Assembly (NCBI GenBank): GCA_026545225.1
Contig: CM048845.1
Span: 118,671,033-118,735,032, forward strand
DNA: 64,000 nucleotides
Origin: Cornus controversa
Taxonomy: Eukaryota > Streptophyta > Magnoliopsida > Cornales > Cornaceae
Reading direction: 5' to 3'
Part shown: positions 6,601 through 43,242 of the stretch, piece by piece
Numbering within the stretch: position 1 is the first letter of the stretch
How the letters are laid out: each line of letters begins with the position of its first letter
Translations under genes and position numbers: made by a program
Notes under the pieces: generated by a model
What the model saw: only the letters and a program-made list of their open reading frames with translations
The model's database searches: none
What the model was told of the DNA's origin: nothing

Positions 6601-6835
6601 TCTTTGAAATCATGGCTGACAAATCTCAATCTGATTCTTTAATAGCCGTTTTCTTCATGTGCACCTCAGTTGGCTTTAATTTGTAAAGCTTTTGTACTTT
6701 TCTAGGACAATCTTTAGTACGGTGCCTGTTCCTTTTGTATCCATAGCATTTCTCATTAAATTTGGGAGGAGCCACCCGTCTAATTGTTAAATACACTGAT
6801 AGGTTTAATAACAAATAATAAATGATATAACACAC
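3640..6835 (-). pseudogene. copia gag-pol remnant
   Basis: Recognisable parts on the minus strand are: a CCHC zinc knuckle (about 6720-6775), an aspartic protease signature WWVDTGATCHIC (about 6535-6575), an integrase core with HGRLGH and SDICDLKF phrases (about 5560-6120), a reverse-transcriptase C-terminal part with ILGIKISR and GSLMYVMNYTQPDIAY (about 4177-5100), and an RNase H part (about 3650-4175). The reading frame is interrupted several times and the gag N-terminus is lacking. It is not expected to make a working protein. The lineage within copia was not determined. Confidence 0.85.
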
Positions 6836-7513
6836 AATTAATTAAGTATGCAATAGCTAAACAATACTTGATTAAAATAAATAGTACAGTTTATTTATTA
6901 GATACACAACAATAACACAAATAAATAGAACCTAAGTTTAAATCGGGGCTCGAATTACATTCGACCTCCTTAAGACAATTATTACCCCGCAATGGAGTTG
7001 AATGGACTCTTGGCGACTGTGTCCCAAGATACAACGATCTTATTCTCAATTGGTAGCAACACTTCAAACCAACTAAGCTTTTGCGAACCGCCTATGTGTT
7101 TATACTCTCTCTTGTACTTAACTCTCTTGAACTGTTGATTCAGACCAAATCACAAAGACTTACTAAACTACCACTTGTGTTAGGCTATATAGGGAGGGAG
7201 ACTTGATGCGTAGATAAAAGAAATCTGAAAACCTGATGTTAATCGGCCTATTTATAGACCACTAGGTGCATTTTCAATTTTTTTGGAATAAATATGGCAT
7301 ATGTTATTTCACTTCAAACATTAGGAATGATAATCTTTCGCCGTGAATCAACACTCATAGTTAACTATTTGTGTCTGTTGATTACTTAACAAACACTCTA
7401 CCATTATGTTATATCCCAACGATATCATGACAGATATTCTGCCACCCATGTCATAACTCATGCAATGTCACCTTACATCGCATACATGTAATTTTCATTC
7501 AATTTTTCTAACA
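6833..7513 (-). repeat. 5' LTR of the copia element
   Basis: It aligns with 2320-3045 from TTAATTAAGTATGCAATAGC up to the end CTAACA. The inner 50 bases or so do not match the other LTR, so the junction with the coding part was altered. Confidence 0.82.
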
Positions 7514-7784
7514 GTAACATTACCAGATTACTTTCACGAGCCATGACATCTGTGTATCAAAGTTGCTGATTTCAATGAGCTCTTTTTTTTATTTTCAAAT
7601 CAATTTTTAGTCCAACGAGTTGCTTTTGGTCTTCCCATCGCTCCAATGAGTTGAATTTGTCTACCGAGCCCCACTATTTTGCATTTTCTTTGTATATGTT
7701 CACAGTCATAGTTGGTAACATCACCAGATTGCTTTCGCGAGCCGCATTCAAAATTTTGTCTCCAAACTCAAGTTGACTTCATAA

Positions 7785-8010
7785 CTCTAGATTATATATT
7801 TTCTATTATATCTGCTGTTAGATTATATATCTTTTCTTAAACAACATAAATTTCTTACACCTTATCCTAAACTATCTAGGACTAGAATTTCTTGTCTCCT
7901 ATGTTTACTTAGCCTCCAATATTATATGCCAATAAATAGGCCTTTATGTATTATTCATAATATTAATATCATTTTAATCAATACACAATTCTCTTTCTTT
8001 ATTTCTAACA
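7785..8010 (+). repeat. 3' LTR of the TRIM-like element
   Basis: This is the partner of 1938-2126, with shared blocks around TGTCTCCTATGTTTACTTAG and a shared end TTTATTTCTAACA. The first bases have decayed from TG. It is longer than its partner because of small insertions. Confidence 0.7.
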
Positions 8011-8130
8011 AATATTTTAATGTAATATTATTTATATTACATATATTATATATATTTTTTCTATTTTTCAAGGCTAAAATTGTGGAACTGAACAGAACCA
8101 AACCGTTTTTCACAGTTTGGTTTAGTTCCA

Positions 8131-8494
8131 CACCACAACAAATCAGGCTTTTTGAGACCAAACTCAAAAGGTCTCAAATGCTATATTACTTGCGACCAAA
8201 ACAGATTGGTCGTAATATGTAATGCATTTGCGACCAAAGTATTCTTTGGTAGCAAATTATGGGAGTATTAATGACCAAAATAATTTTTGGTCACAAATAC
8301 ATTTTTTATTTGAGACCAAATTATTTTGATCATAAAAATGTAAGGCATTTTTGACCGAAATATTCTTTGCTCGCAAATTATGGGAGTATTAACGACCAAA
8401 ATATTTTTTGGTCATGAATATTTTTTTTATTAGTGACGAAATTGTTTTTGTCGCAAAAATGTAAAGCATATACGACAAATTAGTGGTAATTGTT
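8131..8494 (+). mobile_element. CACTA-like terminus with subterminal repeats
   Basis: The segment starts CACCACAACAAATCAGGC, close to the CACTACAAGAAAA start of plant CACTA transposons. It continues with repeated GACCAAA and TTTGGTC phrases typical of CACTA subterminal regions. Two direct copies of a unit of about 122 bp lie at 8223-8345 and 8346-8468. No matching 3' terminus (CTTGTAGTG) was found nearby and no transposase is seen. It is probably a fragment. Confidence 0.5.
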
Positions 8495-8502
8495 TTAATA
8501 TA

Positions 8503-9341
8503 GGGAGGTGATATTCGCAATCCCATTTTTTACATTTGCACACCCTTCTTAAAAGAAATGATATTTCTAACCTTAACTTTATAACTGAATGATTATTTTT
8601 AAAAAAAAATTACACAACTACCATTTCTGATATCCCCTTTCTATTTCCAATCTTTAATATTTTTGGCCTCTTTTGACATACTCCAAAAATAAAAATTACA
8701 ACAAAAAAAGGACTCAAAAAATAGTTGTCTTTCTCTTTTGACAAGACTAAAAAAAAAGTTATTTATGTTGAATAAATTATCTTTTTTGATAGAACCCCAA
8801 AAAAATGTTAACTTTATTGAATTAATTTTCTCTTTTGACAGGATCTAAAAAAAAGTTATTTTTGTAATACTCAAAAAAAAGTATACTACAAAAAAAAAAA
8901 AAATGTTCTCTGTTGAATAAATTATCTCCTTTGATAGGATTGAGAAAAAAGTATGGTACGCAAAAAAAAAAATATATATATATATGTTAAATAAATTATC
9001 TCCTTTGACGACACTGAGGAAAAAAATTATTGTACAAAAAAAAAACCCAAAAAAAGTTCTTTATATTAAATAAATTATCTCTTAATTTTGACATGATCCA
9101 AAAAAATAAAAGTAACAAAAATAAAATAAAATTGAGTAGCCATTATCTCTTTTGACAAGACCCCTATAAAAAGTTCTCTTTTGAATGAATTGTATCTTTT
9201 GACTATATAAAGGGTAGTTATGGTATTGTAAAATAAGAGATGATGCATTATTGAGTTTAAGGACATTATTGTCATTTTATTTAAAAGATTAAGACAAGTG
9301 GAGTGCAATTGTAGAAAAGTGAAATGCGAATATCACTTTCC
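8503..9341. mobile_element. MITE with 8-bp target duplication and internal minisatellite
   Basis: The ends are inverted: GGGAGGTGATATTCGCA at the left and TGCGAATATCACTTTCC at the right. The flanks carry TTAATATA on both sides (8495-8502 and 9342-9349). The interior has about eight imperfect repeats of 60-80 bp holding a TAAATTATCTC TTTTGAC phrase, poly(A) runs and AAAAGTT. No transposase is present. An 8- or 9-bp duplication leaves hAT and Mutator-like origins both open. Confidence 0.75.
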
Positions 9342-9349
9342 TTAATATA

Positions 9350-9673
9350 ACATTAATAAATTATTACTAAGATGAATTTCTTTACTAATTAGTGTTGGTA
9401 TAGACCAATTTTTGTGAAACCAACCAAACATGTGCACCACTAATTGACACGAAGATTTATGATAGAATCATGTGACTAATGTCATCAATTTAAATGAAAG
9501 TTGGTGGATTAGCAGTGTAAAGGCCATTGAATTAGGAGATGATGATCCAAGTCTATGAAATACGTATCAACATCAAGAAACACAAGCAACTAATCTAAAT
9601 TTTATTTGTCTAACTTGGTACCATGTTGGCAAAGTGAGGCTAAACAATGACTAAGTGGTTGGTAACTTTGCTG
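9350..9673. other. Intergenic, nothing recognised
   Basis: AT-rich sequence between the MITE and a TRIM LTR remnant. No gene or clear repeat end was seen. Confidence 0.4.
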
Positions 9674-9895
9674 TTAGAAATATTGAAAGAAATAAAGAAA
9701 TAGAATTATATTTATTTAATTGATTGAATGGATATATTATCTTAAACTTAATGAAGAATACATAAAAGTTTATTTATAGACACATAATCTTGAAAGCTAA
9801 GTAAACTTAGGAAATAAAATTTTTTAATTCAAGATGATTTAAGAAAAAGTGTAAGAAATCTATTAAAAATATATATATAATTTATAATACAAAAT
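9674..9895 (-). repeat. Solo LTR remnant of the TRIM family, inverted
   Basis: Read on the minus strand, this resembles the TRIM LTRs at 1938 and 7785: it begins TGTTAGAAAT on the plus strand (the reverse of the LTR end) and contains CTAAGTAAACTTAGGA and TTTATTTATAGACACATAA, the reverse of the shared LTR core. Just beyond it, TTTATTTTTAGCATGTTATCAAAGG (about 9918-9942) resembles an LTR end plus primer-binding site in the opposite direction, so the locus may be a composite. Confidence 0.5.
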
Positions 9896-10071
9896 ATATA
9901 CAATTTATCTTTCTTTATTTTTAGCATGTTATCAAAGGTGATTTTTCTTCTTTTTATTATTTGCAATTTTCTAACATTTACGATTCAAAAACCAAAACTC
10001 AGATCAAAACCTTCCTCTCTCACACGGTCACACCGGCCATCGAAAACAAAGATTGAATCTGGCCTTCTCTC

Positions 10072-11172
10072 TTAAAAGTTAAGCAAATTAGCACAAGGAC
10101 TCAAACTCTCTAGCCATGGGCTTCTCAGCAGGGTCCACAAAGGGTCCATCGTGGAGTCCATGCTGAACTTGGGCACTTCAAGGTCCATCAAGTTCTCCTT
10201 CTTGGAGCCCAATAATCCAATTGATGTAGAGGGAGCTTCCTTCTCCTGCCCTTCTTCTGTCTTGAAGACAATGTTGTTTGGGACAGCAGGTGGTGTTGCC
10301 CCAACGATGTGATCTTGTGGGTCATGACAGTATAGGGTAGCCTGCGTTAGGGTTGATGAAGGCATCAAATGGTTGATCATCCTGGATTGTCCTTCCATAG
10401 CTGCCCTTTCCTCCAAAACCTTGTATGAAGTTGCTTTCCTATAAATTTTGCAAAGTACTATGTCCTCCTTCATCTGCACCAGATATATATATATATATAT
10501 CAACAAAATCAATATTTAATTTCAAAAATGGCACTGTCAAATCATTTCAAACGAAAATTTCGTTAACTGAATATTGAAAAACTATACCTTAGACGAGGGA
10601 CAAGTATCTGCAAGTCTGTACTCATTCATGACCCAGTCCGTCTTGCGTCCCCGTGGTGCCTTTCCCCTGTAGAAAACCAAAGTTTTCTTGAGACCCAAAA
10701 CGTTTTTGGGGTCTGACAGACACCGAATCTGGCGGTCGGAGCCGGTGGCTTTCCAGAACCCATTCTCGGTGGTCCGGCTAGGCCTTCCACCGTGACCATG
10801 CCTTCTGTCTCTTGGAACAAAAAAGTACCACTCTCTTTCCCCTATCTTTGCCAACCCTGCATTTCTCGAATATATATGACACGATTAATATATATATATA
10901 TATATATATACACACATTCACACATATATATGTATGTATATATATATGTATTTGTATATATAATATACATATATAGCAAAGTTACTAGATAATAATATCT
11001 TACCAGGTAACTCCCAAGGGTCATGGTGATATATGTTTAGAAAACCGATGATATTGTAAGAGAGTTGTTTGCCAGTGACAATCTTTCTAAGGTAGAAGTT
11101 GAGAAGTTCTTCTTCAGTTGGGTGGAAACGGAAGCCTGGTAGCTGATCAAGCTCTGGGGTTATGTTATCCAT
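10072..11172 (-). CDS. NAC-domain transcription factor, three exons
   Basis: A plant-specific nuclear DNA-binding regulator. The exons on the minus strand are 11172-11004, 10856-10588 and 10473-10072, giving 279 residues. The introns (11003-10857 and 10587-10474) start with GT and end with AG and keep the frame. The NAC domain spans about residues 8-162. Its blocks are [14 protein letters not shown], then HHDPWELPG at the first junction, [14 protein letters not shown] with [24 protein letters not shown] with WVMNEYRL, and [10 protein letters not shown] starting exon 3. Intron positions are those usual for NAC genes. The C-terminal part is short (about 115 residues), acidic to neutral and not recognisable, as is normal for NAC activation regions. 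Both introns and the upstream region hold TA microsatellites. The exact Arabidopsis relative was not determined. Confidence 0.93.
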
Positions 11173-11290
11173 TTGTTACGTACTATTGGGCAAGTGATGA
11201 TGAGAATTTAGTTGGTAACTTTTATTCTATATTTTTCTACATGCAAGGCCTTCTATATATATATAAAGGGGAAGAGTTTTGTGTGTGTGC

Positions 11291-11321
<31 letters not shown>

Positions 11322-11330
11322 GTGGAAAAA
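11173..11330 (-). promoter_or_regulatory. NAC gene upstream region with TATA-like tract and GA microsatellite
   Basis: Reading toward the NAC start, the minus strand has TTTATATATATATAG at about 11255-11269, a plausible TATA region 80-100 bases before the ATG. A (GA)n tract lies at 11295-11321, which reads as (CT)n on the coding strand, a common feature of plant core promoters and leaders. No experimental start site is implied. Confidence 0.4.
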
Positions 11331-13266
11331 TGGGGGGTCGTTCTAGGGGGTGGGTCCACACGCTTCCAGAGGTCAGTGATGAGACTAGACCGGTCTTTTC
11401 TATGCCACGAGATATTCCTTTCTTGGTCTTTTGTTTTAATTTAATTTAATTTAATTTTTAGGGAGTCTTCAATACTTGTTTGTTTGTTATTAAATAGTTA
11501 CTAGTGTTTTGTTACCAAAGAACAGAAAATGCTGAATCATTCAAATTATATTTAGTTTAAAGTTTACTAAAAACAGAGTTAAAAATATTGGAAGATTTTT
11601 TTTCGGGAAAAAAAAAATTAAGTGATACCTACATATCATCATAGCACATCACATTTTCCTTTCTGTTGTGAATGCGAGAAATTCGTAAATTTGACTAAAT
11701 AATTATGCAAAATAAAATGATTGTAACTTGTCTAATCATGCTTAAACTTAGACACATCGAGTTTGATGCAAATCCTTAAATTCAAAATGTAAACATCAAT
11801 CGTGTTGCTTTATGATGTACACACTTATCTCACTTAAAATTGGAAATTTTGGTGACACTAATTGAGATTCACATTATTTGTCATCTCAAGGTTTCAAGTA
11901 TTTTCAACAGCATATATATATATATATATATAATGAATTTTTACTCTATTTAAAAAAAAAAAAAAAAAAAAAACACAAGAAATTGTATTTTCAACTAGAG
12001 AATGATAGCCGGCAAGCTGTGGAAATTATTATTTTTATGTTGTAGCATCATAGCTGGTCATCTATAGCAGCCAGAAACCAGGAAAAGTTGAGTCCTTTCG
12101 ATTATTTAAATTCAAAAGACAAATTTCCGCGTGGTTGGTTTTCTTTGGAGAAAATGACGAGCCAAAAAATAAAAATTCGTTATGACTTGGAGTCAACCCC
12201 CAACGACCGCACTTGCAGAGTCTGGAGCTGGAATGAGAATTCTCTCTCCTTGCATATTGCAGTGGTCTTTCTACCGTTTTCTTTTCTTCTCTTCTTTCAG
12301 CTGCAGACTAATGTGATGTATATATCTATGGTTTGAAAGTGGGTTTTGTGGAGGACCTTTATTTGTCCAATTCAAGGTCTAAATTGTGGACAATGTGGTG
12401 TTAGGGTGTGTGAACGAGCTGCAGTGGGGTTAGATTTTATGAGGGTCAAGTCTAATTGGCTAGTACGGTCTACTTCCATTGCATTGGTCTTTCAAATTGC
12501 GAATAATTACTTGTTCAGACCTTTCTTACTTTTTTTAACTTAAGACTTTTCTGTTAAATGATTTAAATATTAAAGTTACACGTATTTTTTCTAAACTTAA
12601 GCTCAGTAAATGGTGCATAACAAAAGAGAGATATATACTTTGATTTTGTAACTAAGGCCATATTTGGTATAATAGGAGGGAAAGATAATAATAAAAAAAA
12701 TAGTAATTATATTTGGTCATGGAAAGTGCCAGGTGAGATGGCTGGCTGATACAAGTGCATCCATTGGATGCAATGAACATGGATCTTCTTGGAGCAAAAA
12801 ATTTTGCCATCTGATTTGACTCGAGACATCTTCCCTCCAAGACAGAGTAGATATGATTACACCGAGAGTTGATCGGGTATACTCTGATAATCAATATAAT
12901 ACTCTGAAAATTTGGACGTCAATTATTTTAAAGAATTTGAATTGCTTTATATTATTATTATTATTTTTTTATTAATTATTGTGAAATGTCTTGTCTCTAT
13001 AGTTTATTATTTTAGGTGAGTTGTTTTTATTTTATATGCATTTTATCATTTTATGTGGATTGCGTATGTTTTATAGCTTCCATTTATTTCATGTAAATTT
13101 CTCTGTTTATATTTTTATCATTTTATGTGAATTGTTTATTGGTTTTGTATTGTTTTATTTAAATCTTTTAAATGCTTTGGTTTGGGCTAGGGAGGAATCT
13201 GGATTAGAATGGTTGGACTAAGGACATGCTTAAGTTGTTGGGCCAGGGTTATAGTTATATTATTAT
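11331..13266. other. Intergenic AT-rich region
   Basis: No gene was recognised. The stretch contains a TA run at about 11913-11931, a poly(A) run at about 11950-11972 and TTTTA-rich sequence toward 13150. Short open frames here lack any recognisable protein features. Confidence 0.4.
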
Positions 13267-13549: not shown

Positions 13550-16450
13550 TTGCTGTTGGCTTTACGTACAGAACTAAGAGAATAAACGAAAGAGAGAAGG
13601 AAGTGAATGAACGATCGGGTAAATAAGTTGATTTGTCAAAGAGGCAAGTTCGAACTATTCTCTTCCCCTTTGCATCGTATACATATATAATATTTGTATA
13701 TACATGTTGCTGGAATATATGTATAATATATATATTAATTGTATAGACATGTTGCTAGAAATTTGTATGCAATTAATTATAAAATTAAATGATTTTGCAT
13801 GCTAAGAATAATTTTGTGAATTAAACATGAAGATTTTGTAGTTTTGGTACTGTTTTAGGGCATTTTTTTGCATATATATATACATGTATATATGACTGTA
13901 TAGGCGGTATATATATATATATATATTAACATGAAATTGGGTTTACTGTATTCATCATTTTTGAACGTTTTTGTTCCGATTAAAAGATAGATCTTACTTT
14001 CTAGAATAATCCTTGAAAGTTTGGTTGTGAACCGTTGGGTAGATTGACGGGAAATTGAGTTTGAAATTTTAGATTTTCGAAACTTGAAATTTGGCATTTT
14101 TGATTTAGGCCGCGAGAGGGGGTGATTTTGGTATCAATACGTAGCTTAGATCGATACGAGTTCAATGGTATATTCATATGCGCGATTCGGTGACTGGAAG
14201 TGATTGGGAAGTTTGGTCACCATTGTTGAATCGTGGGAGTTTCAGGTAAGGGAAGAAGAAAAGAAAAGAAAAAAAAAAAGAAAGGGGGCAGCGCGCCACC
14301 GGTGCGTGCTGCCTGCGTCGGCGCCGTCCGGTGACTAGAAATTCATTTTTGGGCCCGACTCGTGGGGGCCCACCTCTGGGTCCGATATGGGCCCATTCCG
14401 ATTTATTTTAATATTTGTTTTGAATTTTTGAAATTTTTGTAAAAACTTGAAAATTCAGAAAATTATTTTTTTAAAAAATACTTTTATAATTCTAAAAAAA
14501 TTCCCGAAATTTTATGTCAACTTCCTGGGAGTTTAAGGAGCTTGGGATTTAAATTTATGTCGAAATGATTTACCATTGTCTTTAAATTAAATTTTAAATT
14601 GTCTAAAAACTGGGTTTTTCAGCTTCTTTAATTTTAGAAAATACTTAGAAATTTCCAAAAATTTTGAACTTTTTTTTGTAACTCTCTAGAGGTTAAATAC
14701 ACTTGGGTTTAAATTTTCAACTCAAAATAATCTTTCCTTGTTGTTCAATTGATTTTTAAAGTGTCCAAAAGTTGAATTTTCACCTTCTTTTATTTTTAGA
14801 AAATATTTTAAAATTCCAGAAAATTCTAGAAAAATTTAGGTAACTTTATAGGATTAAAATGCACCTGGGTTTTAAATTTCATGTGAAGATGAGTCTCCCT
14901 TGTGATTGTGTTGGTTGTAAACGTATGCCTCGAATTATGTTTTATTTTCTTTTTGCTAGAAAAATATTTTTTTTAAATTCTCAAAAATTATAGAAAATTC
15001 TAGAATGATTTAATAAGATTCTTAGAAGTAGAATAGACCCAGAAACCTAGATAAGAGTTAGGTTTAGACTCCCTCGTAGATTTGAGTGCACTGGGGGTTA
15101 GATTGGGTGTTTGCTTTCTAAAGTGCTTAAATTGTGTTATTTGATTTACTTGAATGTATTTTCCTTTAAGGATATAAATGCCCCTTAAATAATTGATTAT
15201 AGTTTACTTGTGAACGATTTGTCTTATGGTGATAATTTCATGTCGGATAATTTGAATTACTTTGTTTGTGTAAATAAAAATCATAATGCACCTTGTTTAT
15301 TTTATGTTTCATATTGGGAATGCATCTATACATTTTATTTGGCATGTAAGGATTGCCCGGTGTCAGGATCGCCCATACCTAATAAGGTATCTATGCATTT
15401 TATTTTGGCATGTAAAGATTGTCCGGCGTGTCAGGATTGCCCATACCTAATAAGGTATCTCTGCATTTTATTTTGGTATGTCAGGATTGCCCGGCGTGTC
15501 AAGATCGCCCATACCTAATAAGGTATCTATATATTATATTTGCTTTGTCATGATTGCCTAGATTTAATAAAATGCATGCATATGTTTCTTTATTTTTGAA
15601 CTTAAAGAATGTGTTCATTGTTAAATGATAAGGGTTTGTTGGGACAATGTATAAGATGATTTTAATTTATGAAAACATGACTAGGTAGTGAATGACTAGT
15701 ATGTATATACTTATACCTATTAAGGTATCAAAGGATAAAATGGTGGCATGTTAGAATTGTTTGAACTTGATAATATTTCATATTATGTTTATTTCTGCTG
15801 AACTTAAGAAATATGTTCACTTTTGCATAATAAGGATTTGGGTGGAACATTATAAACAATGACTGTTGTTTTGGAAATATAAAACTGGGTAAAAGAATAA
15901 CTTGTATGTTAAATCTATGAATTTCTTTTGTATCCTTTATACTGAGGGTATGTATATTGGTTCTTTGATTAGGATGTAGTAGATAGAACTTGCTCGTGGG
16001 TTTAACCCACTCTATTGACATTTCAGGTCCCACGCAGGTTTCCTCGCGAGGATAGAGTACTAGGGTTGGTTGTGGTAGACATCTACTCTCATCGGTCCTA
16101 GGGTAAGAACCTACCTTATTATTCAAGAGTCAAACTATGAACTCGTTTGGAGATTTTGGTTGTTAGTTTTAGATTAGAGTCTTAAACTTTTGTTTTTATG
16201 ATTAAGGGGTTCTTGGGTTACTGGACTTCCAAATTGTATTATCAAACATATAATTATTTGTTTACCAGTTATTTCAATTTAGTGGAATTTTTTGTTCAGC
16301 TTTTAAAATTTATTTTACTGTCTTTTGTATTCTATGCTTGTTGCTACCAGTTGTATGTATCTTTCAAGTTCTGTGTATGTGACTGGCCACCTCATGCGTG
16401 AAATTTTTTTTGGGGGTATTTCAATAAAGTCAGTACTTGATAAGATATGA
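13550..16450 (+). mobile_element. Ty3/gypsy LTR or leader-like remnant
   Basis: This long non-coding stretch looks like plant chromovirus LTR or leader sequence. It has a GC-rich patch (about 14285-14400), several repeats of a phrase such as AAATTCCAGAAAATTCTAG, and the tandem block at 15341-15540. No terminal TG/CA pair or target duplication could be fixed and no coding domains are adjacent, so edges and family are tentative. Confidence 0.35.
15341..15540 (+). repeat. Three tandem copies of a 66-68-bp unit
   Basis: The phrase CGCCCATACCTAATAAGGTA recurs three times with small changes, preceded each time by a GGCATGTAAGGATTGCCCGG-like phrase starting at 15341, 15407 and 15475. Head-to-tail units with few differences suggest local duplication inside the LTR-like region. 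Confidence 0.8.
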
Positions 16451-19754: not shown

Positions 19755-20234
19755 TGTACACACAAATTTCGTGTCCAAAAATCTAGGAACGAAAATCAGT
19801 AACAAATAATCAATTTTATTAATTTAAGAAAAATGGGTTACAAATCTCTGTAGATCTTCACAAAATAAAGATAAAGTCCTCTGATATATTCGATCTCCTT
19901 GGTGATCCGGATTCAAGGGCTGTTAGAGTTTAATCTTGAGTTCGGTTGAAACTTTGGTGAAGAACGACACGTGGATGATGTGCTTGTTGTTCTTCTCCTT
20001 CTGGGTTTAGATGCTTTGAAACTTTGGATCTTGAGTGAAGAATTTTGCAGAGTTTCGGCTTTCTCTGAGAGTCTTCTCGTATTCTTTACTCCACCCATGT
20101 ACCTTTATTTATAGGCTTACCGGAAGGGTAGATTTGTAACTTTTTTATTTTATTTATAATTATCCTATAATTTTCTTTCATAATAATTGTGATAATTATC
20201 CAATATATACATAATAATTATTTTTGATAATAAT

Positions 20235-20279
<45 letters not shown>

Positions 20280-20466
20280 CCATTAGATCCATTTTCAAGT
20301 GGGCTTGGACTTCCCAAACAATTTAGATCAGCCCATAACCTATTTATTTGTGGTGGGTTTGTGTTTCAAATTATCTGACTCATTGGGCCACATTTCAAAG
20401 TGGGCTAAATTGAAGATAAACCCAAATTATATTTTGGGTCCATTTTGTAATTTTTTAATGTCTACA
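19755..20466 (-). repeat. 3' LTR of the Tat-group element
   Basis: On the minus strand the LTR starts TGTAGACATTAAAAAATTAC (from 20466) and probably ends TGTGTACA (19755). A TATA box is read on the minus strand as CTATAAATAAAGG at about 20106-20118. The start is well supported by the adjoining polypurine tract; the 3' edge is an estimate. Confidence 0.65.
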
Positions 20467-20487
20467 AATTGCCCCCACTTCAAGTCT
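20467..20487 (-). other. Polypurine tract of the Tat-group element
   Basis: The minus strand reads GAAGTGGGGGCAATT immediately before the LTR start TGTAGACA. This is the primer site for plus-strand DNA synthesis in LTR retroelements and fixes both orientation and LTR edge. Confidence 0.7.
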
Positions 20488-20599
20488 CGTGCTATATTGA
20501 ATTTGTCACGTATCTAAAGCGGGACTTGAAGTATTTAATTTTCGCAAAGTTGTTTTTTTTTTTTGCGAAAATCTAATTGCAAAGGGGATGTCTTCTTTG

Positions 20600-20850
20600 T
20601 GAAGTTGAATTGGAGTCTTGAACACAATAGGACATTTTTTCTTGTCCAAACGGAATTGAAGAGTTGAAGATCCTATTGCAAATAGGATTTTTTTTCCTTA
20701 TTCAAGTGGAATTGAGGACTTGAAGATCCTATTGCAAATAGGATTTTTTTCCTTGTTCCAACAGAATTGGAGTATTCAAAATCCAATATCAAATAGGATT
20801 AACTCACCACTATATATATGCAGCCTACGCTTCAGACCCTTCACATCAGA
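20600..20850 (+). promoter_or_regulatory. Promoter of the antisense PMD gene with palindromic repeat array
   Basis: A TATA box (CTATATATATGCAG, 20810-20823) precedes a likely start near 20840-20850. Upstream are about four imperfect units of 55-56 bp. Two carry the perfect palindrome ATCCTATTGCAAATAGGAT (20670-20688 and 20726-20744) and a third a diverged version (20781-20799). A fourth, weaker copy is at about 20620-20640. The array could bind a dimeric factor; that is inference from symmetry only. Confidence 0.5.
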
Positions 20851-20924
20851 GAATAATTGAGAGAGATCCCACAAACCGCTATTGAAAGGAAATTGAAAGA
20901 AACACGGTAAGCTCTTCTATCTTT

Positions 20925-21480
20925 CTCGCTTTTTTTTTCCTTCTTACTATCGTATTTTTTTCCTTGCCCCTTTTTTTCCATTCTTTTCTTTTTTTTTTTC
21001 CTGTCTGTATTACTTTTTTTTCCTGTATCTTTCTTTCTTTTCTTCTTCTCTCTTTCTGTTATACGTACGTATTGTTACCTTTTTTTTGCAGCCACTACCT
21101 TCTTTTTTTTTCTGTTTCTTTCTCCTTTTTTTTCTTCTACCGCCACTCCCTATAACTTGCCATAGTTGTACACCTTAATTAGGACATATATACATATAAT
21201 AAATTTCCAAGATGATGGCTCATGTTAGCAAAACCCATATGCAAGGTGCACTTTTGCATCTTCCACATATACGGTGCACTTTAACTTCACCCATGTATAC
21301 CCACGTGACGATTTTTTTCTACTTTTTTTTTTCACTGCCTTTTCCTCTCTGTTGGGCTTCAGGCTGACTATGCCTTCAATTTTTTTTTATTTTTCTTTTA
21401 CTACCAATATGCCTTCACTTTCCTCTTTATTTATTTTTTCTTTCAACTTCCTTTTTTTTTTCTACTTCTTTTTTTCATGA
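20925..21480 (+). other. Pyrimidine-rich stretch in the PMD leader intron
   Basis: Long T and CT tracts dominate the plus strand. Two short open frames here encode only phenylalanine, serine and leucine runs and are composition artefacts. Confidence 0.5.
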
Positions 21481-21864
21481 TTGAATGTGTAGAAACATAA
21501 AAAAAAAAAATAAAGATTTCTATGCTACCTACTAGTTTTGAACTTAAGACCTCAAGGAGATTTATTATAACACCAAACCATCTCTTCTGTACCACTTTTG
21601 TGTATTGTAAACTCTTGAAACAAAATATACATCTGGCTGAACTTTGAAAGGAACATTTTTTTTAGTAGTAATTTTGTTTTCCATGACTACTTTTAATCAA
21701 ATCTGTTTTTTTTTTCATTTTTATTTTCAAATCAACTTCCACTTGTGGGCTCTGCTTGAATTTTGTGTTGCCTCTGGAACAACACACAGATCCATTGAAC
21801 TCATCGAGGAAGACAACTTTCTGTGAGTTACTCAACTCTCAGAATATGGAGTTCAGACCGCCAT

Positions 21865-22190
21865 TCATTAGTCCCTTCGGGGTCCCTTAATGCCTTTCGG
21901 GGTCACTTTTATTATCCTTTCGGAATCACTTTTATTGTCCCTTCAAGGTCTCTTAGTGCCCTTCAGGGTCACTTTATCGTCCCTTCGGGGTCACATTTAT
22001 TGTCCCTTAGTGCCCTTCGAGGTCACTTTATCGTCCATTTGAGGTCCCTTAATGCCATTTGGGGTCATTTTTATTATCCCTTAGTGCCCTTTAGGGTCAC
22101 TTTTATTATCCCTTTGAGGTTCCTTAGTACCCTTCGGGGTCACTTTATCATCCTTTCGGGGTCCCTTAGTGCCTTTCGAGGTCATTTAGT
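21865..22190 (+). repeat. Minisatellite in the PMD leader intron
   Basis: About fourteen degenerate units of 20-25 bp built on CCCTTCGGGGTCACTTTTAT and a variant CCCTTAGTGCC follow each other. The array keeps one frame open for over 100 codons, but the product would be a simple repeat and is not taken as a protein. Confidence 0.8.
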
Positions 22191-25100
22191 TCCGTTGGAA
22201 TAATTTAGTTAGTCCTTTTCGGACATTTTTTTTTCTCAATTTCTCTCACACTTTTTTTTTATTGTCAGGTAAACAACATTCAACTTCTGCCAATCATGGT
22301 TTTCTTCAAAAGCTTCAAGATAAACATCGTAACCATTTTAGAATAAGAGAACGATGTTATGGAGAATGGAACTACACTTGATGTAGGGACCCCACTAGTT
22401 GGTCGTTTTGCCCCATGGGTGTCTCCACCTAATGTTTTATACCACTTGTTACAATGGTGCAAAGAATTTTCCTGTATACTTATGAATCTTGGCTATAACC
22501 AGAATAATGTACGAGCATCAATTTTAGAGGCTTTAGTGTTGAAATTTGCACTTCATAAAGTTAAAAAAGAAGAACCTGAGCAATTTTCACTCATGAGTCA
22601 TAAAATACGTGCAAAGAAATAGAATGGGGTGTTTCCTTTAAAGTTTCTGTTGACTTGGTGTACACACAAGGTTATTGGGAATGGTCAGAGGACATTTTGG
22701 GTCATCACGACAAATTTCTTAGAGATAACAAATTATACGGTGCCATGTTTGCTTCTTTGTTCTCATATGATCGACGTGTGAATGTAATCAGAACATTCCT
22801 TGAGTCTTGGTACCCTTTAACTAATACACTTCACTGCTCAATCAGGGAGTTATCGATTTCCCTTCGGGATCTGTATGTGATAGGATGTCTCTCATTTTGT
22901 GGAAGATTTTATGTAGAAGTCATTCCTTATGCAAAGGAATTATCTGCTATTAACAAAGATAAAAATTCTCTTCTTCCTTTGAGTTATCGGTACTTATTTT
23001 TAGTTTTCCACCAGCTTTGCAAACAATATAAACGAGGGACCGGATTGTGAAAATTTCTGAATGAACAAAGCTTTGGTTCAGAGGTGCCACTAAGTATAGT
23101 AAGTCACCACCGAGAAGAGGATCGAGAAACAAGACTCAACATCCCAAAAATACTTACAACCCTTCTGGAATAATTAATCCCGTTAAGAATTGGTCACCAC
23201 AAGAAGATGAGATGTTTACTAGTCTTAGAATAAAATTAGAGATGAGGAACAAATCTTATTTAGCAGCATTTATAGCGTGTTGGTTATGCAAATTTGTCTT
23301 GCCTACCAGTCCTGGAAATATAATTCATCCTGAGGTGTTTAAGATTGCTAGCATGATGGTAGACGGTAATAAATTGTCTTTCTGTTCCTGTTCTAGCCAG
23401 CATTTACAGAGGTTTAAATGACATTGTTTCTTCCCCTGATCTTGGAAACTCTAATGTGACAATCCCCATACACTATGTATATGGCTGGTTAGCTGAATAC
23501 TTCAAAACAAACTTTTTTGTCCTAGACCGTAATTACCTGCCCAAATGACTCGGTACATGGGGGAAGGGTTTGTGAAGCATTTTGACAAGACAGAGGCCCA
23601 AGAGTTGTTCAGGTTATGTAAAGGTGTTGATTTATCTTGCTTATCCAGAACATCGCCGACAAAGAGACTACTAACAGATAATGAACAATTACTTCTTTAT
23701 GACTTCGAGTATTTGGCTAGCCTCCGGTCCAGCTACCTGAAATTACGCCAAGGTGACCGACGTATTATTGAGCCTTACAGTCTACACAGATTTGGTAGAC
23801 AGTTTTGTTATCACCAGGATATTCCGGGCAGACTGAAAAAGGATATTCGTACTGGTGCTTTGGAAGAGATTTTGACACTATAGAGATCGACCACTCGTTA
23901 TCATACTGAATGTGAAGTACAAATTCCTTTAAACTTTAATTTCTAAAAATTTTCTGTCACCAAAACTTCTGCTGAATGGTGGTCAAAAGTTTATATTGAT
24001 CCATTCATGGTGAAAGGAGGTACTTCGGGGCATATTCAGAGTGCAATTTCTCCAAAAGGAAAACCAGCCAAAGTTAGAAAGGTTACAAACGATGGACCTA
24101 AGTCGACCCCTTCTTCTAAGCCAATCTCAGGGGCAGCCTCTAAATCTCATAATGATCATGATGTCGATGAGAGTTCTGAAAGTCATGTAGAGATGACCAA
24201 ACATATTCTACCACAAATCAACACTTGTCCTCGTACTCATTTAGTGATAGATTCAGATGAAGATATTGGAGGAAATGATGAGGATCGCAACTGGAAGCAT
24301 ATGACTGACAAGGTGAAGCATATTTTCAAGTGGGCGGATTTTATTATTTCTCACGGCATGGATTGATACTTTGGAATGTCTTCCAAAAGTAACGAACCAA
24401 TGCGAGTAAGGTTCCCAACCTTTATGCCATATTTTATTTATTTGTTTATTTATATTTTTACTTTTATTTATTTATTTTCAGGTAGAAGAAAGCCTCAAAG
24501 AAGATCTCGTTCTCATTGATAACCCTACTGGTAGTGGAGCGTCTGTTTGTGGGCCATCTTCATTTGATTTGGTACCTAAGATAAATGCATTGTCACAAGT
24601 CTTACCAGTAGGAAGAGAGACTTCTTAAGGTTTGGATGTTTTAGCAAGGCATGAAATCAGTAACCAAACGCCCTAGGTAGTCGTGCAAGAACTTAAAAAA
24701 GTTGATTTATTCTCATATCAAATTGCCCCGTCTGAAGTGTCAGCCTTCAATGCGGAAGACATCATTGTAAACGTCTAATGCAAAAATGCTTTAGCCCTTG
24801 TCAAGAGTATAAAAAGTATCGTGATCAACACTCCCACTCAAAAGGTTCCATCCTTGGGGCCCAAGCTTGAAAAACTTTACAATGAACTCTCAAAACTCCC
24901 TGGAGATTACTCTAGTCTACAGACACGAATCGAGTCATATATGAAGAATGTTGCTCATTATGTTGATTCAAAATCTTCTTATGCTTCTATAATGACTTCA
25001 GATTAGCAGTTAGAGCAACTCACTCACATTGATACATTGCTCGTTGATGCCATTACTTTGGAGGATACTGATTCCAAGCATGTGCAATCACTTCAAGGTG

Positions 25101-25379
25101 CTTTGAGTGATGCTAAGGATAAATAGGCTATGTTGTTGAAAGAGTTGTAACAAGTAAGGGAGAAGGCTAAACAACTTAGAGCCTCCATAGAAGAGAGCAA
25201 TGGACAATTATCTCATCGGAAGGAAGCCATCGCCAATCTTAGAAAAGAACGAGCCTCAGTTGAAGAAACTAACGTTCTCGCAGCTTAGGATCTTGAAGTA
25301 ATGAGGGCTACAGAAGAATTATTACAAACAGAACGTTAAGAGATTCTAGCTTTACAACTTTAAAGTGAATCATCATCTT

Positions 25380-25749
25380 TTTATTTTATTTTATTTTATT
25401 TTATTTATTTATAGAACAATCTATTTAGCTAGCAAAGTAGAATTGTAGTCTTCAACCTCATCAATAAAAGAATCGTCATTACTTTTAGAACCAACATTGT
25501 CATTAGTTATTTGTTCTGCCATTCACAGTTTATATTCTTGCGGGCCAGGAGTATTACACATTTTTTTTTGTGGTGACTGAACTTGGAACAAACCTCCAAG
25601 CTGCCTACATACCCTCAAAAAGGGATCAAGTTATTAACGTAGTTCAAATTTTTTTTTTTGGTTGACAATTTATACTCATGTCAAGGAATGCTTTTTTTTT
25701 TGGTGCCTTTTACAGTTTTAGCTCATGTGGGCTAGGAGCCTGGCACCAT
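25380..25749. other. Linker between PMD gene end and integrase end
   Basis: This stretch contains a TTTTATTTTATT run and the phrase AGGGATCAAGTTATTAACGTA, which I associate with the non-coding 3' region of Tat elements. The two opposed genes converge here. Confidence 0.4.
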
Positions 25750-28700
25750 CAAGGGTAGTAGCGTTTCAAGAACTTGCCATTAATGGGCCCAACTAACACT
25801 CTATCTTCATCAATAATCTTATATGCTCCGTTGGTGTAGACTTCACGAATCCCATTTTGACAAAAAAATGTTTCCAGTGCTATGATTCATGATGATAGGC
25901 CTGCGAACAGCAAGTACCAAGTCTCCAACCTGGAATGACCGATGTTGAGATTTTTTGTTGAAGGCTCTGAAAGCCGAGCTTGATAACATTATAATTGTTT
26001 TTGAGCTTCTAGCCTCTTCTCATCCATCGATTATTGAAGACGTAAAATGACGTTTTCTCACTCGTGAGACCTTCTTGTATGGCTATCCTTGATGAAGGAA
26101 TTTGTCGTTCCAGGGGGAGAACAACTTTCACACCATAGACGAGAGAATAAAGAGTTACTTGGGTAGGTGCGTTGTATTAGATTTAGAAATCACTTTCTTC
26201 AATAAATCACAAAGTGTTTTATTAAATGCCTCTGCAAGTCCATTAGTTGGAGCATTGTACATGGAGGATTTATGCTGTTTCCAAATTTCTTACAAAGTTG
26301 AGTCACCCAACTATTTTTAAAATTTAACCCATTATTAGTAATGATGTATCCAGGGACACTATACCGATAAATGATGTTACACTTGATGAAGTCAACAACT
26401 GTCTCCTTTTTGACTTCTTTAAAGGGTGCAACTTTAGCCCATTTAAAGAAATAATTAGTAGTTGCAAGGATGTATAAGTGACCTTTAGAAGACTTGCACA
26501 GAGGTCCTACCACATCCAATCCCCATGCATCAAATGACCATGAAACAATTGTAGGATGTAATGGCTTTGGTGGTTGGTGTATGTAATTAGCATGGAATTG
26601 ACAGGCTTAGCACTTTTTTGCATACTCCATACAGTCTTTGACCATAGTGGACCAATAATACCCCATTCTCTTTACGCAAAAGTGAAGCCTAGGGCCAGAT
26701 TGATGTGCACCAGATACCCTAGAATATGCTTCCTCCATTGCATGAGCTGCTTCGTCTTCTCCGAGACAATGAAGAAAGAGACCTTCAAATGATCGTCTGT
26801 ATAACGTGTTATTATAATAAATGAAATGAGATGCTCGCCTATGTATCTCGGTCTTGTGGTGTCGGTCTTCAGAAAGCTTTTCAGGTTCCAAATACTCAAT
26901 TATAGGTTACCTCCAGTCGTCCCCTTCGACAATAAAGACAGAGATTACATTACTCTCCTCAATTTTATCTTCAAGGACTTGAGGTAGCACCCATTGTTAG
27001 CATACTGGAACATTGACTATTTCATCACCAACTAATGCCAATGTTGTGGCTAAATTTTCCAAAGCATCAGCCATACTATTTTCCTTCTTAGGAAGATGTT
27101 CTAGAATGACATTGTCGAATTTTATCAACAAGTGGGAAACATACTTGTGGTACGGTATTAGATTCTCCTTCTTGACCTCATAATTCTTAAGGAGTTGATT
27201 GATCACCAATTTAGAATCTCCATATATTTTGAGATCCATGATGTTCATCTCCCTTGCCATTTGAAGACCAATGATCAATGCTTGGTACTCAGCAAACATT
27301 ATTTGAGTAGTTTTCAGTTATCGCAAATGCATATGGAAGGATTTGCTTTTATGCAGAGACAAACACTATGCCTACCCCCGTTCTATCAGACCGTGCTGCT
27401 CCATCAAAGAACATTATCTATGGAGGAAGAATGTCAATTTAAAAGATTTCTTCATCAGAAAAATCTTCTGAAATTTTCCAATCAGCTTGGATAGGATAAT
27501 CAGCTAGGAAATCTGCCAGGACTTGTCCTTTTACTGCTTTTCATGGCACATAAATGATTTCAAATTCATTGAACAAAATTAACCACCTTGTCAAGTGTCC
27601 AGAAAGGACTGGTTTTGACATTACATACTTGAGAGGGTCAGCTCTTGTAATGAGGTGTATTGTATGTGCCAGAAAATAGTGCATTAATTTCTTGGAGGCA
27701 AAGATCAGTGCGAGACACATTTTCTCAATCGGATGGTACTTTAGCCCTATTGGCATGAGCCTGCAACTTAAGAAATACAGTGCTTTCTCCTTGTGCTCTT
27801 CATTATTTTATGCAAGAAGGGCGCCAAGAGATTTTTCTTGCTCGACAATGTAAAGTATGAGAGGTTTTCCAAGTACAGGTACCCCTAACACTGGAGGATT
27901 AAGAAAGTATTGCTTAATACTATCAAAAGCATTTTGACAAGCTTGATCCCACTCGAATGAGACATCCTTCTTTATGAGTCGGTTGAAAGGATGACAACAA
28001 CCAGCTAAATTTGAGATAAACCGACGAATGAAAGCAAGCTGGCCTTGCAGGTTTTGAAGCTCATAAAATTATTGGGTGGTGACATCTTTTGTATGGCATC
28101 AAATTTAGATGGATTGATTTTGATACCGCGATGGCGAACCACGTACCCAAGAAATTTTCTAGAAGTAACACCAAACACACACTTGAGATGATTCATTTTG
28201 AGTTGGTATTTTCTAAGACGATTGAAAACTGTACGAAGATCTTGTAAATGACCCCCTCTTTTCTTTGTCTTAACCACAAGGTCATCGACATAACACTCAA
28301 CAATTTTATGAAGTATGTCATCGAAGATCCTTTGCATGATGCGTTGGTATGTTGCCCCTGCATTCTTAAGTCCAAAAGGCATAACTTTGTAACAATGAAT
28401 ACATTTTGGGGTGCGGAATGTAGTTAACTCTTTGTATTTTGGAGTCATCCTAATTTGGTTATACCTAGAATAACAATCCATGAAAGAGAGAGCTTCATGT
28501 CTGGTTGCTGTGTCGATAGTGAGCTCCGGGATAGGAAGAGGAAAATCATCCTTTGGACATGCCTCATTTAGGTCACAAAAATCTACACAGATTCTTATCT
28601 ACCCATTTTTCTTTTTCACTAGCACAATCCTCAAAATCTATGTCGGATACTTGACCTCCCGAATAAATCCCATGTCAATCAATTTGTTGGGTTCTTCTTC

Positions 28701-29180
28701 TATCTTTGGGATAAGTTCTGGATGGAAGAAACGTTGAGATTGTTTAATTGGACATGTCTCATGTTTGACAGCAAGGTTATGGACTGCGATTCTAAGGTCA
28801 AGATCTGACATTTTCTCGTATGTCCAAGCGAATACATCCTTGTATTTTGACAGTAATTGAAAGTAGTCATTTTCTTTTGAGGTGTTTAAGAATGAACTAA
28901 CAAAAATTGGTTTGGGCTGGCCCATCGTCCCCAAATTAAATTCTTTGAGTTGATCAACGGTCACTTGCCCCCCGTCTTCAAGTGTTGAGGGAGCTTCTTT
29001 GACCTCATCATCAGAATTTGATTTTTCCTCGACAATAATGTGATAAGTGGTGGCATAAAATACTTCATCCTTTCTTCCATTCGTGTCGGATTCCTTAGAC
29101 TGGGTAGTGAACGCAATAGTTTGTCTTTTTGCTTTTAGTGTAACGTCATTAGTGACGTCCACCTCTGTTTTACGTTTCAT
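25750..29180 (-). pseudogene. Tat-group pol remnant: RT, RNase H, second RNase H, integrase
   Basis: Recognisable phrases on the minus strand are: RT with VMPFGLKNAGATYQR and YVDDLVVKTKK (about 28240-28400) and FLGYVVRHRGI (28130-28170); RNase H with KMCLALIFASKKL (about 27690-27730); archaeal-type RNase H with EYQALIIGLQMA and IYGDSKLVINQLL (27190-27295) ending in ADALENLAT; integrase with LHFCVKRMGYYWSTMVKDC (about 26630-26690), LDVVGP (26505-26522) and ITNNGLNF (26313-26340); and an integrase C-terminal part to about 25750. Several interruptions show it is broken. Confidence 0.85.
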
Positions 29181-29208
29181 TCATGAGGGAATCAAATTCT
29201 GAACTTCA

Positions 29209-30160
29209 CTATCTTTCACCATAAGTTAAAAAATCAGGAAGGGAATTTATTTCTCCTTTAATATAATCTATATTAAAATCAAAAGCAGAGAGGAGAGCCT
29301 GCCATCTAGCAAAGATTTGCTTAGAGGCAATATTCTTGACATCCTTCTGGAGGACATCTTTGGCTACCTTACAATCTATTCTTAAAAGAAACTTCTGGTT
29401 GAGAAGGTCTCTTTCAAATTTGAGGATGCTAAGGACAATAACAAGGATTTCCTTTTTAATAGTGGAGTAATTCTGTTGGGAAGATTTCCATGTTTTGGAT
29501 GTGAATCGGACCAATTGTTCTTTTTCATTTTCCACTTGTTTGAGAATGCCACCATATCCTTCTTCAGAAGCATCTGTTTCCACAATCTTAAAAATTGAAG
29601 GATTAGGGATACATAAACATGGAATAATCTTAGCTTTTGACTTAATTTTCTGGACAGCTTCTGTATGACTCGAGGTGTAGGGTGGAGGATTATTTTTGAG
29701 CCTTTGATATAGAATTGCAGTGTCTTGTGCAAGATTCTTGTAAAAATCAGAGATGTAATTAAGGCTACCTAGAAAGCTTTGGAGTTGGGTCTTATCTTTT
29801 ATTTCATTAGGGAATTTATTAGCAAAATTAATAGATATGTCTATTGGGATAATTTTTCCTAGATGAATATTGTGTCCTTAAAATTTAACCTTAGTTTGGA
29901 ATAGACTGATTTTGGGAGCAGAAACAACCAAACCATCATGTTTCATGATCTTGACAAAATGATATTTCAAAGATATTCCTTTGAAATATCTTTTATGCTC
30001 ATTTTTTGCTGATTTTGTGCAGATGAGGATTTGTTCAAAGTACCAACGATCATTGCCATCAGCTTGAGGAGGATAATGGTAGTTTTCTGGAAAATAAATT
30101 TGGGTAATTTCTTTGGTGGGAAGATGGACTTCATCACCCAATTCTGCCAGAAATTGCAAT
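29209..30160 (-). pseudogene. Caulimoviridae pol fragment: RT end and RNase H
   Basis: The minus strand contains TDASEEGYGGILKQ (about 29540-29580), an RNase H start, and ASKQIFARWQALLSAFDFN followed by YIKGEINSLPDFLT (29215-29325), phrases characteristic of caulimovirid polyproteins. Upstream on the same strand are SAPKISLFQTKVKF (about 29880-29920) from the RT end, and a different protein region near 30060-30130 (EITQIYFPENYHYPP). It is broken and rearranged. Confidence 0.75.
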
Positions 30161-30796
30161 CTTCATAATTTTGAGATAGGTGTAACAAAATATCTCATTG
30201 CCGGATTTTCTGGACAACTGAGGGGATGGTGGGACAATTATCTCACAACAGAACAACAAAAAACTATTATTCTAGCTGTCAAAAGAAGGCCTAATGGAAC
30301 ATTTAAACATTCTTGGTTTATAACCTTTGTCAAGAATAAATTTTCTCAAGAAATCTCGTCATGGTTTTATAACTAGTGGACCCAATTTGGTCCTGATCCA
30401 AGAATTTTACCCATTCCCCTTCAAAAATCCTTTGATGCCTATGATCGCATGCTCAGGACAAGCTCCTCTTATCTTGTTGATCCATTATATGAAGTAGTGG
30501 GATGTAATTTTTCTTCTAATTGGAGATCAATAGGGGTTGGCCTGGGATAATATGGGTTAAGTTGTTGAATATTGCATTGGTCAAATTGTTATTTTATTTG
30601 GTCAATTTCTTTTGAACCATAATTAGTTTTCTTTGAAAGAGTGGCAAAAGTTTTCTTTTGTTTTATGTCATCATGTTCTTTAGAGGATGAACTAGCTGAT
30701 TATCTCATTCCGCATTAATGGTATTCCTCTTCAAAACCTAGGACCAAGAAATATAAAAAATTTAAAAGAACCCCAAGGAAATCTTTTAGGTCTAAG
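30113..30796 (+). pseudogene. Caulimoviridae coat-protein-like fragment
   Basis: The phrase LIAGFSGQLRGWWDNYLT (about 30198-30250) matches the conserved coat-protein core of caulimovirids as I know it. A lysine/arginine-rich stretch follows near 30740-30796, as expected before the coat zinc knuckle. The block is interrupted by the insertion at 30797. It is broken. Confidence 0.6.
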
Positions 30797-41543: not shown

Positions 41544-43242
41544 AGATAGAAACCATTGTACATCTGAAATTGGTCATGGCATCCAAGTTTTAAAGGATTT
41601 GCTAATGTTCCAAAGCCTAATTTTGTACAAGTGTTGTACCAAATTATGGTATAGTTCTTTCCATTCTCAATTTTTTGGTTGGTGTAATGAGAATTTGCAT
41701 GAAATATACATGGAAATTACTAAATTAAATACTTTATTCTTATTCATGCCTCTACATTGATGTAGCACAAGGACTTGTAATATTACAGAACAAAAGTAGT
41801 GACTTTATTTCAGACTATTTATGATAGCATAATCCAAATCCTACTCAAATAAGAGAACTCAAAAACCTTAAAAAAAATGTAAATTAATTCAGAAATTCTC
41901 CCTAACTTGCATAATGACTAAAAAAAATCAAGTCAGATGTTTCCTTGGTTTAAACAAAATCATAAATTTATATGATGATGGATCATCAAATAGTGGAAGA
42001 GGTGCCATATGATAAAGATGGATTATCAAATCCATTCAATCTAAACTCAACCCAAAAATGACCATCCACCAAACTGCATATGTTCATGTGATATATATAT
42101 ATATATATATCTTCATTTTTTTCCCTCTTTTTTTTGGCTAAAGTTAAAACATTACTAGGATTAATAGTGGTTTTACAAAACATGAGTTTGAGTTGAGGGC
42201 AGTTACTTTATGTAAATAATGTAAGTGTGTCCCTAACCAGCACCATCAATTAACTGAAACAAGAGTGGACAATGACCCAAAAATATGCACACACCATTTT
42301 GTAAATGTACACACTAATTACCTATAGCTATTTGGAAGCAACTCTTAGTTGTGAAGTGGATTCTATAGATTCATCAGTCTGGAGAGACCTTTCAACAACA
42401 TTTTCCTGCACATTTTTTTTTGTGGTGAAATCTGAACATTTTTTTGTCTTCTGATGAAGCCTTATGGTTTGCAGAGTGGACCCATAAACAGATCATGCAT
42501 GTTTCAGTACATGTGGCAGTCATACTTGTAACATATGCCACATAACCCATAAACTGACCATGCATGTTCCAATAAATGTGCCAATCGTACTCACAACATG
42601 GACAGATTGCTTTAGTCTGATTTGTTACTCATATGAATAATTTTATTTATTTATTAATTAATGGGTGTTTTTGAAGAACTCTGTAAGTCCCCAGTTTTAT
42701 TAATTTGGCATCAAGTTTCTGTTGCCCTTAGATCACAGATTTCCTTGGACCCAGCCTTCTGGATCCTCCAGTAGCATCAAAGGACCCCCAATAACCGATC
42801 CAACGCATTAGCCCTCTGATCAAATTAAGTATGTGCAGGAGACTGAGATGAGGAGTGCAATTTTTGTAAATAAGGAAGCACATATAGAGAGTTAAGTCCT
42901 ATTCATTTCTCAACTCCATTGTTGCAGTAGCTGTTGAACTTGTTCCCATCTTCCTGCACCAGGACTGAGATTTGCACCATAGTTTCTTTGATAAAACTAA
43001 ATATGGTCCTTGTGTCAACATTTTTGCAAAAGGACTAGTGTGTATTAAAACATGATATTTACTATAAAATTACATTTTTTTTTGGGAAACAAAATCAAGA
43101 AAGAGAGCAACATTTAGTGTAACATCATATATTTGTATTGTATTTTCTTTTATAACTACAGAGTTTGTTCATGTACATAGCTGTTGAATTGAAAATTGAA
43201 TTCCCTTAGCATAAGCTTAATACTTTATCCACTAGTATCACA
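41544..43242. other. Spacer between convergent DUF241 genes
   Basis: The two genes are convergent here and no further gene is seen. A direct duplication of about 65 bp lies at 42480-42605, sharing CCCATAAAC and GACCATGCATGTT-like phrases. A short TA run is at about 42091-42109. Confidence 0.45.

Follow-up and report, generated by a model that had tools for sequence, protein, structure and literature searches.

A plant mobile domain gene as probable antisense cargo of a Tat-type Ty3/gypsy retrotransposon family in Cornus controversa

Introduction

Host proteins with a plant mobile domain (PMD) silence transposons, and whether the PMD genes of retrotransposons oppose them is a question already raised in print. 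The locus described here poses a prior one: does a PMD gene lying inside a retrotransposon belong to it, or is it there by chance? The window, that is, the whole stretch of 64,000 nucleotides that was analysed, comes from Cornus controversa (assembly GCA_026545225.1, contig CM048845.1, positions 118,671,033 to 118,735,032 of the forward strand). A sequence-only reading had described in it a minus-strand element of the Tat group with a plus-strand PMD gene between integrase and polypurine tract, and this description is confirmed by Pfam matches, by the long terminal repeat (LTR) and by the order of the parts. Judging from copies across the genome, the PMD gene is almost certainly true cargo of the element family, because many sister copies carry the same gene. 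The explanation considered probable is that the window holds one 5'-truncated member of a Ty3/gypsy family of Tat type (Ogre/Retand-like), and that an antisense accessory gene is a resident part of the elements of this family.

Cargo across the genome

The genome searched was the window's own (771.7 Mb). With the window reverse transcriptase (RT) as query, the best 150 matches of 12178 first-look candidates were scored; a window PMD piece gave 152 matches of 303 candidates, the best 150 of which were used for pairing; the Pfam PMD profile gave 143 matches, and for the second, coiled-coil-like exon of the gene (the coil exon) 40 matches were scored. RT and PMD matches were paired at distances of 2.5–12 kb, and all pair counts are lower bounds. 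A PMD match lies downstream of the RT in at least 87 of the best 150 RT matches, antisense in 86 of these 87, while the upstream side, used as control, yields 2 pairs. The middle half of the distances falls at 5025–5090 bp (range 3792–11499; 4961 in the window). When Pfam PMD hits are used instead, 23 of the 150 RT matches are paired, all 23 in antisense and none upstream. Pairing extends from RT matches at least 77% identical to the window (at least 54 of 74) to those below 77% (at least 33 of 76). Twenty of the 23 loci paired by Pfam hits were taken as 10-kb stretches, here called the sister copies, and all 20 contain PMD, coil and pol, arranged and oriented alike. The sequence-only reading had left it to other copies to tell cargo from chance neighbour, and in them the PMD block is present.

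PMD sequences occur in MULE transposons and in genes of the host as well (PMC5418596), so that the block might have been a separate insertion, of a MULE or a captured host gene, which chanced to sit in the window copy. This now appears extremely improbable. The block occupies the same place and strand in 20/20 fetched copies and in 86 of the 87 pairs, and none of the 25 inverted repeats inspected (the best 25 of 38) spans its two ends. Moreover, the family PMD forms a long branch separate from the group that consists of PMD genes lacking pol within 4 kb, in a tree made within this genome that holds no named references and carries a long-branch warning. An insertion private to the window copy is refuted by the sister copies, the RT–PMD pairs and the inverted repeats; the family as a whole may nevertheless have captured the block in ancient times, at its root. 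As for membership in MULE transposons, no transposase match was found in the pieces scanned and no block-spanning inverted repeat among the matches listed (25 of 38).

The element and its antisense gene

From about 29190 down to 19755, the minus strand of the window is occupied by a Tat-type Ty3/gypsy element, of which the 3' part is present, with the domain order RT, RNase H, RVT_3-type RNase H, integrase, antisense block and LTR. The parts of the element and of the plus-strand gene that sits between its integrase and polypurine tract are the following:

19755..20466, minus strand: 3' LTR, 712 bp, bounded by TG..CA and containing a TATA box in the sense direction of the element
20467..20481, minus strand: G-rich tract adjoining the 3' LTR, probable polypurine tract (by position and composition only)
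20626..20800, plus strand: 55-bp tandem repeats, 3.2 copies, with two perfect dyads (20670-20688 and 20726-20744)
20811..20818, plus strand: TATA box of the PMD unit (TATA-type match)
20907..22268, plus strand: leader (5' untranslated region) intron, predicted
21862..22190, plus strand: short tandem repeats within the leader intron
22296..24405, plus strand: PMD exon, broken, with its ATG at 22296
24406..24481, plus strand: 76-nt phase-0 intron, predicted
24482..25361, plus strand: second coding exon, coiled-coil-like tail, broken
25463..25468, plus strand: AATAAA, possible poly(A) signal (consensus match only)
25752..26906, minus strand: integrase region, broken
26997..27317, minus strand: additional RNase H (RVT_3, E 1.8e-17), between RNase H and integrase
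27544..28068, minus strand: RNase H in pieces (RT_RNaseH), broken
28008..28598, minus strand: reverse transcriptase (PF00078, E 1.5e-26)
28641..29180, minus strand: pol segment upstream of RT, past which the element is truncated

The additional RNase H at 26997-27317 assigns the element to Tat, its position between RNase H and integrase being the mark of the Ogre/Retand side of this group (PMC6317226). In the Pfam profile scan the integrase gave an rve match at 26199-26606 (E 0.0011, under its Pfam cut-off). In 16 of the 20 sister copies the LTR gave an alignment of 200 bp or more. A second copy of it was sought across the 64-kb window and none was found; therefore, the 5' part of the element has been lost or is located elsewhere.

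Three plus-strand pieces of the window match PF10536 in order (profile positions 2-59, 91-151 and 272-301; E 2.5e-4, 3.7e-4 and 1.1e-3), all scoring under the Pfam cut-off of 34.9 bits, which is exceeded by the open PMD of the sister copy L012 (E 2.2e-33, 116.3 bits). The coil exon matches coiled-coil families weakly (best E 0.018). Over 22341-24370, the six longest plus-strand stop-free stretches, summed, exceed those of all 1000 first-order simulations, and the single longest one was reached in 5 of 1000. Regarding the introns, the leader donor (20907) ranks 1/232 and the leader acceptor (22268) 1/263, and in the short intron the acceptor ranks 2/263 and the donor only 23/232; these ranks are rough, as they rest on generic scoring matrices. 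Excision of 24406-24481 fuses frame 1 with the frame of the tail in phase 0.

The window copy is broken, a fossil. Along reading paths chosen by eye, the PMD and coil exons contain 12 in-frame stops and 4 unexplained frame changes, and pol contains 9 and 6, respectively; decay is similar in both, with 5.4 lesions per kb in PMD and 4.4 in pol. Two other measures were discarded. Host-gene codon usage was uninformative as a coding test, pol included, and CpG depletion (observed/expected 0.53 in PMD coding sequence, 0.51 in pol) cannot serve as a common clock because the whole window likewise gives 0.52. A PDB sequence search with two PMD pieces gave no match at E up to 1, an NCBIfam scan of two PMD proteins found no family, and an AlphaFold model of one PMD piece from its single sequence was unusable (mean pLDDT 35.6).

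The broken end of the element, near 29200, abuts a pararetrovirus-like RNase H patch (29209-29877, minus strand). Its best PDB match is 8r0s ('Enzymatic polyprotein', E 2.8e-31), which we take to be a caulimovirus protein, followed by 4ol8 (2.5e-16) and Ty3 7q5b (4.6e-16). Next to it, a DUF7746 match (30098-30376, plus strand, E 2.4e-13) runs in the opposite sense. IMG/VR scans with the window RT and a PMD piece gave no relatives. Elsewhere in the window there are three tandem 68-bp repeats (15360-15563) and an inverted duplication (43229-43757 / 47479-48015, 87% identical) that overlaps a minus-strand open reading frame (ORF) of 307 aa (43243-44166).

Conservation in the sister copies

In the 20 sister copies, nucleotide identity to the window copy is about 88-89% in the PMD exon, 86-91% in the coil exon and 89-91% in pol; in one of them the PMD match falls in two pieces. 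The promoter region was found in 19 of the 20, and sequence similar to the tandem-repeat region of the leader intron also in 19. A TATA-type match follows the last dyad in 17 of the 18 copies readable there. The donor GTAAG and the acceptor AG of the short intron are present in 20/20, and its length varies from 68 to 93 nt between unchanged flanks; such variation between constant splice sites is the behaviour of a real intron. At the leader intron, the acceptor AG|GTAAAT is retained in 18/18 readable copies, and a donor GT occurs at the corresponding place in 14 of 15, judged by eye in less similar sequence. The TATA box, leader intron, short intron and coil exon proposed by the sequence-only reading thus recur beyond the window, and, as far as aligned copies can tell, they are features of the family, as are the position and orientation of the gene.

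Some sister copies retain open frames, of up to 703 aa without masked letters in the PMD exon, 293 aa in the coil exon and 1216 aa in pol inside the fetched stretch. The family therefore includes members that look little decayed. The locus had been called the fossil of a system; this stands for the window copy and does not extend to the system, given the sister copies with open PMD, coil and pol. In one copy (L014, 2931-6023 on the PMD-gene strand) the short intron has 93 nt, a length divisible by three, and the unspliced gene forms one open frame of 1031 aa.

Coding constraint

The ratio of nonsynonymous to synonymous substitution rates (dN/dS) was compared over all six frames between the window and L012. 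The gene's own frame is the lowest of six in each case: 0.378 for PMD (wrong frames 0.409-0.973), 0.323 for coil (0.405-0.848) and 0.385 for pol (0.430-0.933). Since the ratio stays below 1 in wrong frames too, the evidence is the margin and not the value. Differences at codon positions 1, 2 and 3 number 61, 64 and 96 in PMD, 23, 19 and 34 in coil, and 97, 62 and 108 in pol. Among copies with open frames only, the median dN/dS is 0.339 for PMD (11 copies), 0.558 for coil (12) and 0.357 for pol (14), from the pairs with dS above 0.01 (54/55, 65/66 and 88/91, respectively); this set was put aside, being conditioned on open frames, with non-independent pairs and masked letters in one PMD row. The comparison with L012 suggests that PMD and coil have been under long-term constraint much like pol.

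This constraint bears on the possibility that the antisense transcript, and not a protein, is what matters, by forming double-stranded RNA with the element RNA and leading to small-RNA silencing or self-limitation. The two transcription units overlap by design, and the idea has been published (PMC7264820). However, such a transcript needs neither pol-like constraint on PMD and coil nor open frames, and as the whole explanation it is considered unlikely; the transcript and the protein may each have a role.

Other PMD genes of the genome

Five further PMD classes were compared. Three of them (L032, L034 and L035) are antisense to Tat-like pol with 42-44% amino acid identity in pol. The other two showed no pol in the 7.5 kb taken, and each groups in the tree with a Tat-linked PMD. 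From these sequences, the antisense PMD arrangement is one that recurs across distant families of this genome. Aligned PMD pieces of the window family are 20-33% identical to those of the other classes; where both PMD and pol matched between Tat families, PMD identity is 20-21% against the 42-44% of pol. Nearer to the window family is a second one in this genome, about 71-74% identical to it in RT and 55-60% in the PMD piece.

A further set of PMD genes lies at C8:6.64-6.92 Mb (L001-L007), with at least seven matches of 364-400 bits and open frames of 595-1262 aa. These genes form a separate group in the tree and have no pol match within 4 kb; they are perhaps an expanded host PMD gene cluster.

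Weighing the explanations

Several observations weigh against a family with a conserved antisense accessory gene. Among the 74 RT matches at or above 77% identity, 20 have no PMD match among the matches listed. Four of these 20 do carry the cargo: one fetched locus contains the PMD, with a run of N over the position of the query piece, and in three others RT and coil exon lie about 2.7 kb apart (2.6 kb in the window); the other 16 lie outside this check. One of the 87 RT–PMD pairs is not antisense. The PMD margin over the best wrong frame in the comparison with L012 is small (0.378 vs 0.409). Among recent copies the PMD signal is weak (own frame 0.461, wrong frames 0.506-0.793; 19 copies) and the own frame of coil, at 0.604, is not the lowest (wrong frames 0.447-0.780; 20 copies); the corresponding values for pol are 0.353 and 0.423-0.888 (20 copies). 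This suggests that recent copies mostly display post-insertion mutation. Finally, the Tat-linked PMDs are split in the tree, which needs four changes of label.

The weak signal among recent copies, together with the greater divergence of PMD than of pol between Tat families, would also suit a selfish passenger that hitchhikes on the element without serving it. Against this, PMD accompanies both the close and the more distant RT matches in the numbers given above, and is found likewise in the three further classes antisense to Tat-like pol. A mere passenger is accordingly judged rather improbable.

An accessory protein is the likelier role of the PMD gene. Its transcription would start at its own promoter and run against that of gag-pol, and splicing would then give a protein of about 1000 residues with PMD and coiled coil that may act in the nucleus as an accessory factor. 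This product would most likely tune transcription or silencing of the element, perhaps in competition with MAIN/MAIL1, which are PMD proteins of the host, and with PP7L, their partner; the counter-silencing step is put forward tentatively and is on balance doubtful. The persistence of spliceosomal introns in a retrotransposon would be due to their orientation, because the genomic RNA holds the unspliceable complement of antisense introns, so that retrotransposition spares them. Retrotransposition reporters serve the mirror-image purpose by combining an intron and a reporter of opposite orientation (PMC12786077).

The repeats before the TATA box invite a more elaborate scheme. The dyad core CCTATT-N3-AATAGG occurs in 19 of the 20 sister copies, with 2-4 occurrences in each and 54 in total, every one within the first 1600 bases of the 10-kb stretches. 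The PMD gene could then be a self-contained, intron-bearing regulatory gene, its two introns shielded by the antisense orientation, whose coiled-coil and presumably dimeric product would read the dyads ATCCTATT-N3-AATAGGAT, about 55 bp apart, that lie just ahead of the gene's TATA box, and would in this way control its own level and thereby the escape from MAIN/MAIL1–PP7L silencing. This scheme is speculative and judged improbable. Conservation of the dyad beyond that of the repeat unit itself was considered and is not supported, the 6+3+6 dyad being present in 55 of 101 flank-anchored repeat units (some of the 101 are not true units); its number is sufficiently explained because dyads spread along with the repeat unit.

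Comparison with known systems

Ogre/Tat elements with a PMD extra ORF were reportedly described by Steinbauerova et al. in 2011, as related in other papers. The family presented here resembles them in its Tat pol, where a second RNase H stands between the first one and the integrase, and in the PMD-coding extra ORF; other marks of Ogre are an intron between GAG-PROT and RT and a primer binding site for tRNA-Arg. The PMD extra ORF is frequent in Ogre, where PF10536 is found in 57% of the elements (Neumann et al., 2019, PMC6317226), and is not alone proof of Ogre; with an LTR of 712 bp, the element is placed only as Ogre/Retand type. Splicing or a promoter of the Ogre PMD gene is not described in the available part of that text. 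Among the atypical domains in Gypsy consensuses of plants, PMD is the commonest (PMC9289625), and the clades PMD-A1/A2 have Gypsy elements as their sole source (Ikeda et al., 2017, PMC5418596). Like these, the window gene is a Gypsy-encoded PMD related to the host silencing proteins MAIN/MAIL1 (PMC5418596; Nicolau et al., 2020, PMC7156037), and in a tree without named MAIN/MAIL sequences it forms a long separate branch, where a PMD-A gene would be expected to branch apart from the host clades PMD-B/C.

The closest parallels in layout are Grande, with an antisense gene (gene23) that has its own promoter and lies between pol and the 3' LTR (PMC7264820), and Retand, with an antisense TRP28 ORF (PF04195) in 97% of clusters (PMC11963269). 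Both share with the present family an antisense gene between pol and 3' LTR and tandem repeats in the same region (PMC7264820; PMC11963269), and some Retand clusters are also of coiled-coil type, with Smc matches (PMC11963269). In contrast, the domain here is PMD, scans of eight plus-strand pieces of the window gene and of both L012 exons having given no PF04195 match, and introns are not reported for gene23 or TRP28 in the available parts of these papers (PMC7264820; PMC11963269). Competition with host PMD silencing proteins is likewise a published idea (PMC8616336). The sequence-only reading had presented the complete architecture as notable; it is not new, because Tat/Ogre elements with PMD, the Grande antisense gene with a promoter of its own and the idea of counter-silencing have all been published.

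The kind of system is thus already known for this group of elements, and what is added here is that the antisense introns are conserved and that dyad repeats recur ahead of the TATA box. A search of the open-access literature, which covered neither subscription papers nor the dyads as a target, found no account of an antisense PMD gene with conserved introns, and no priority is claimed for them. Should splicing of the introns occur as predicted, an antisense accessory gene would offer LTR elements a means of keeping introns; and with several copies of this genome having open PMD, coil and pol frames, the proposed opposition between retrotransposon and host PMD proteins becomes testable here.

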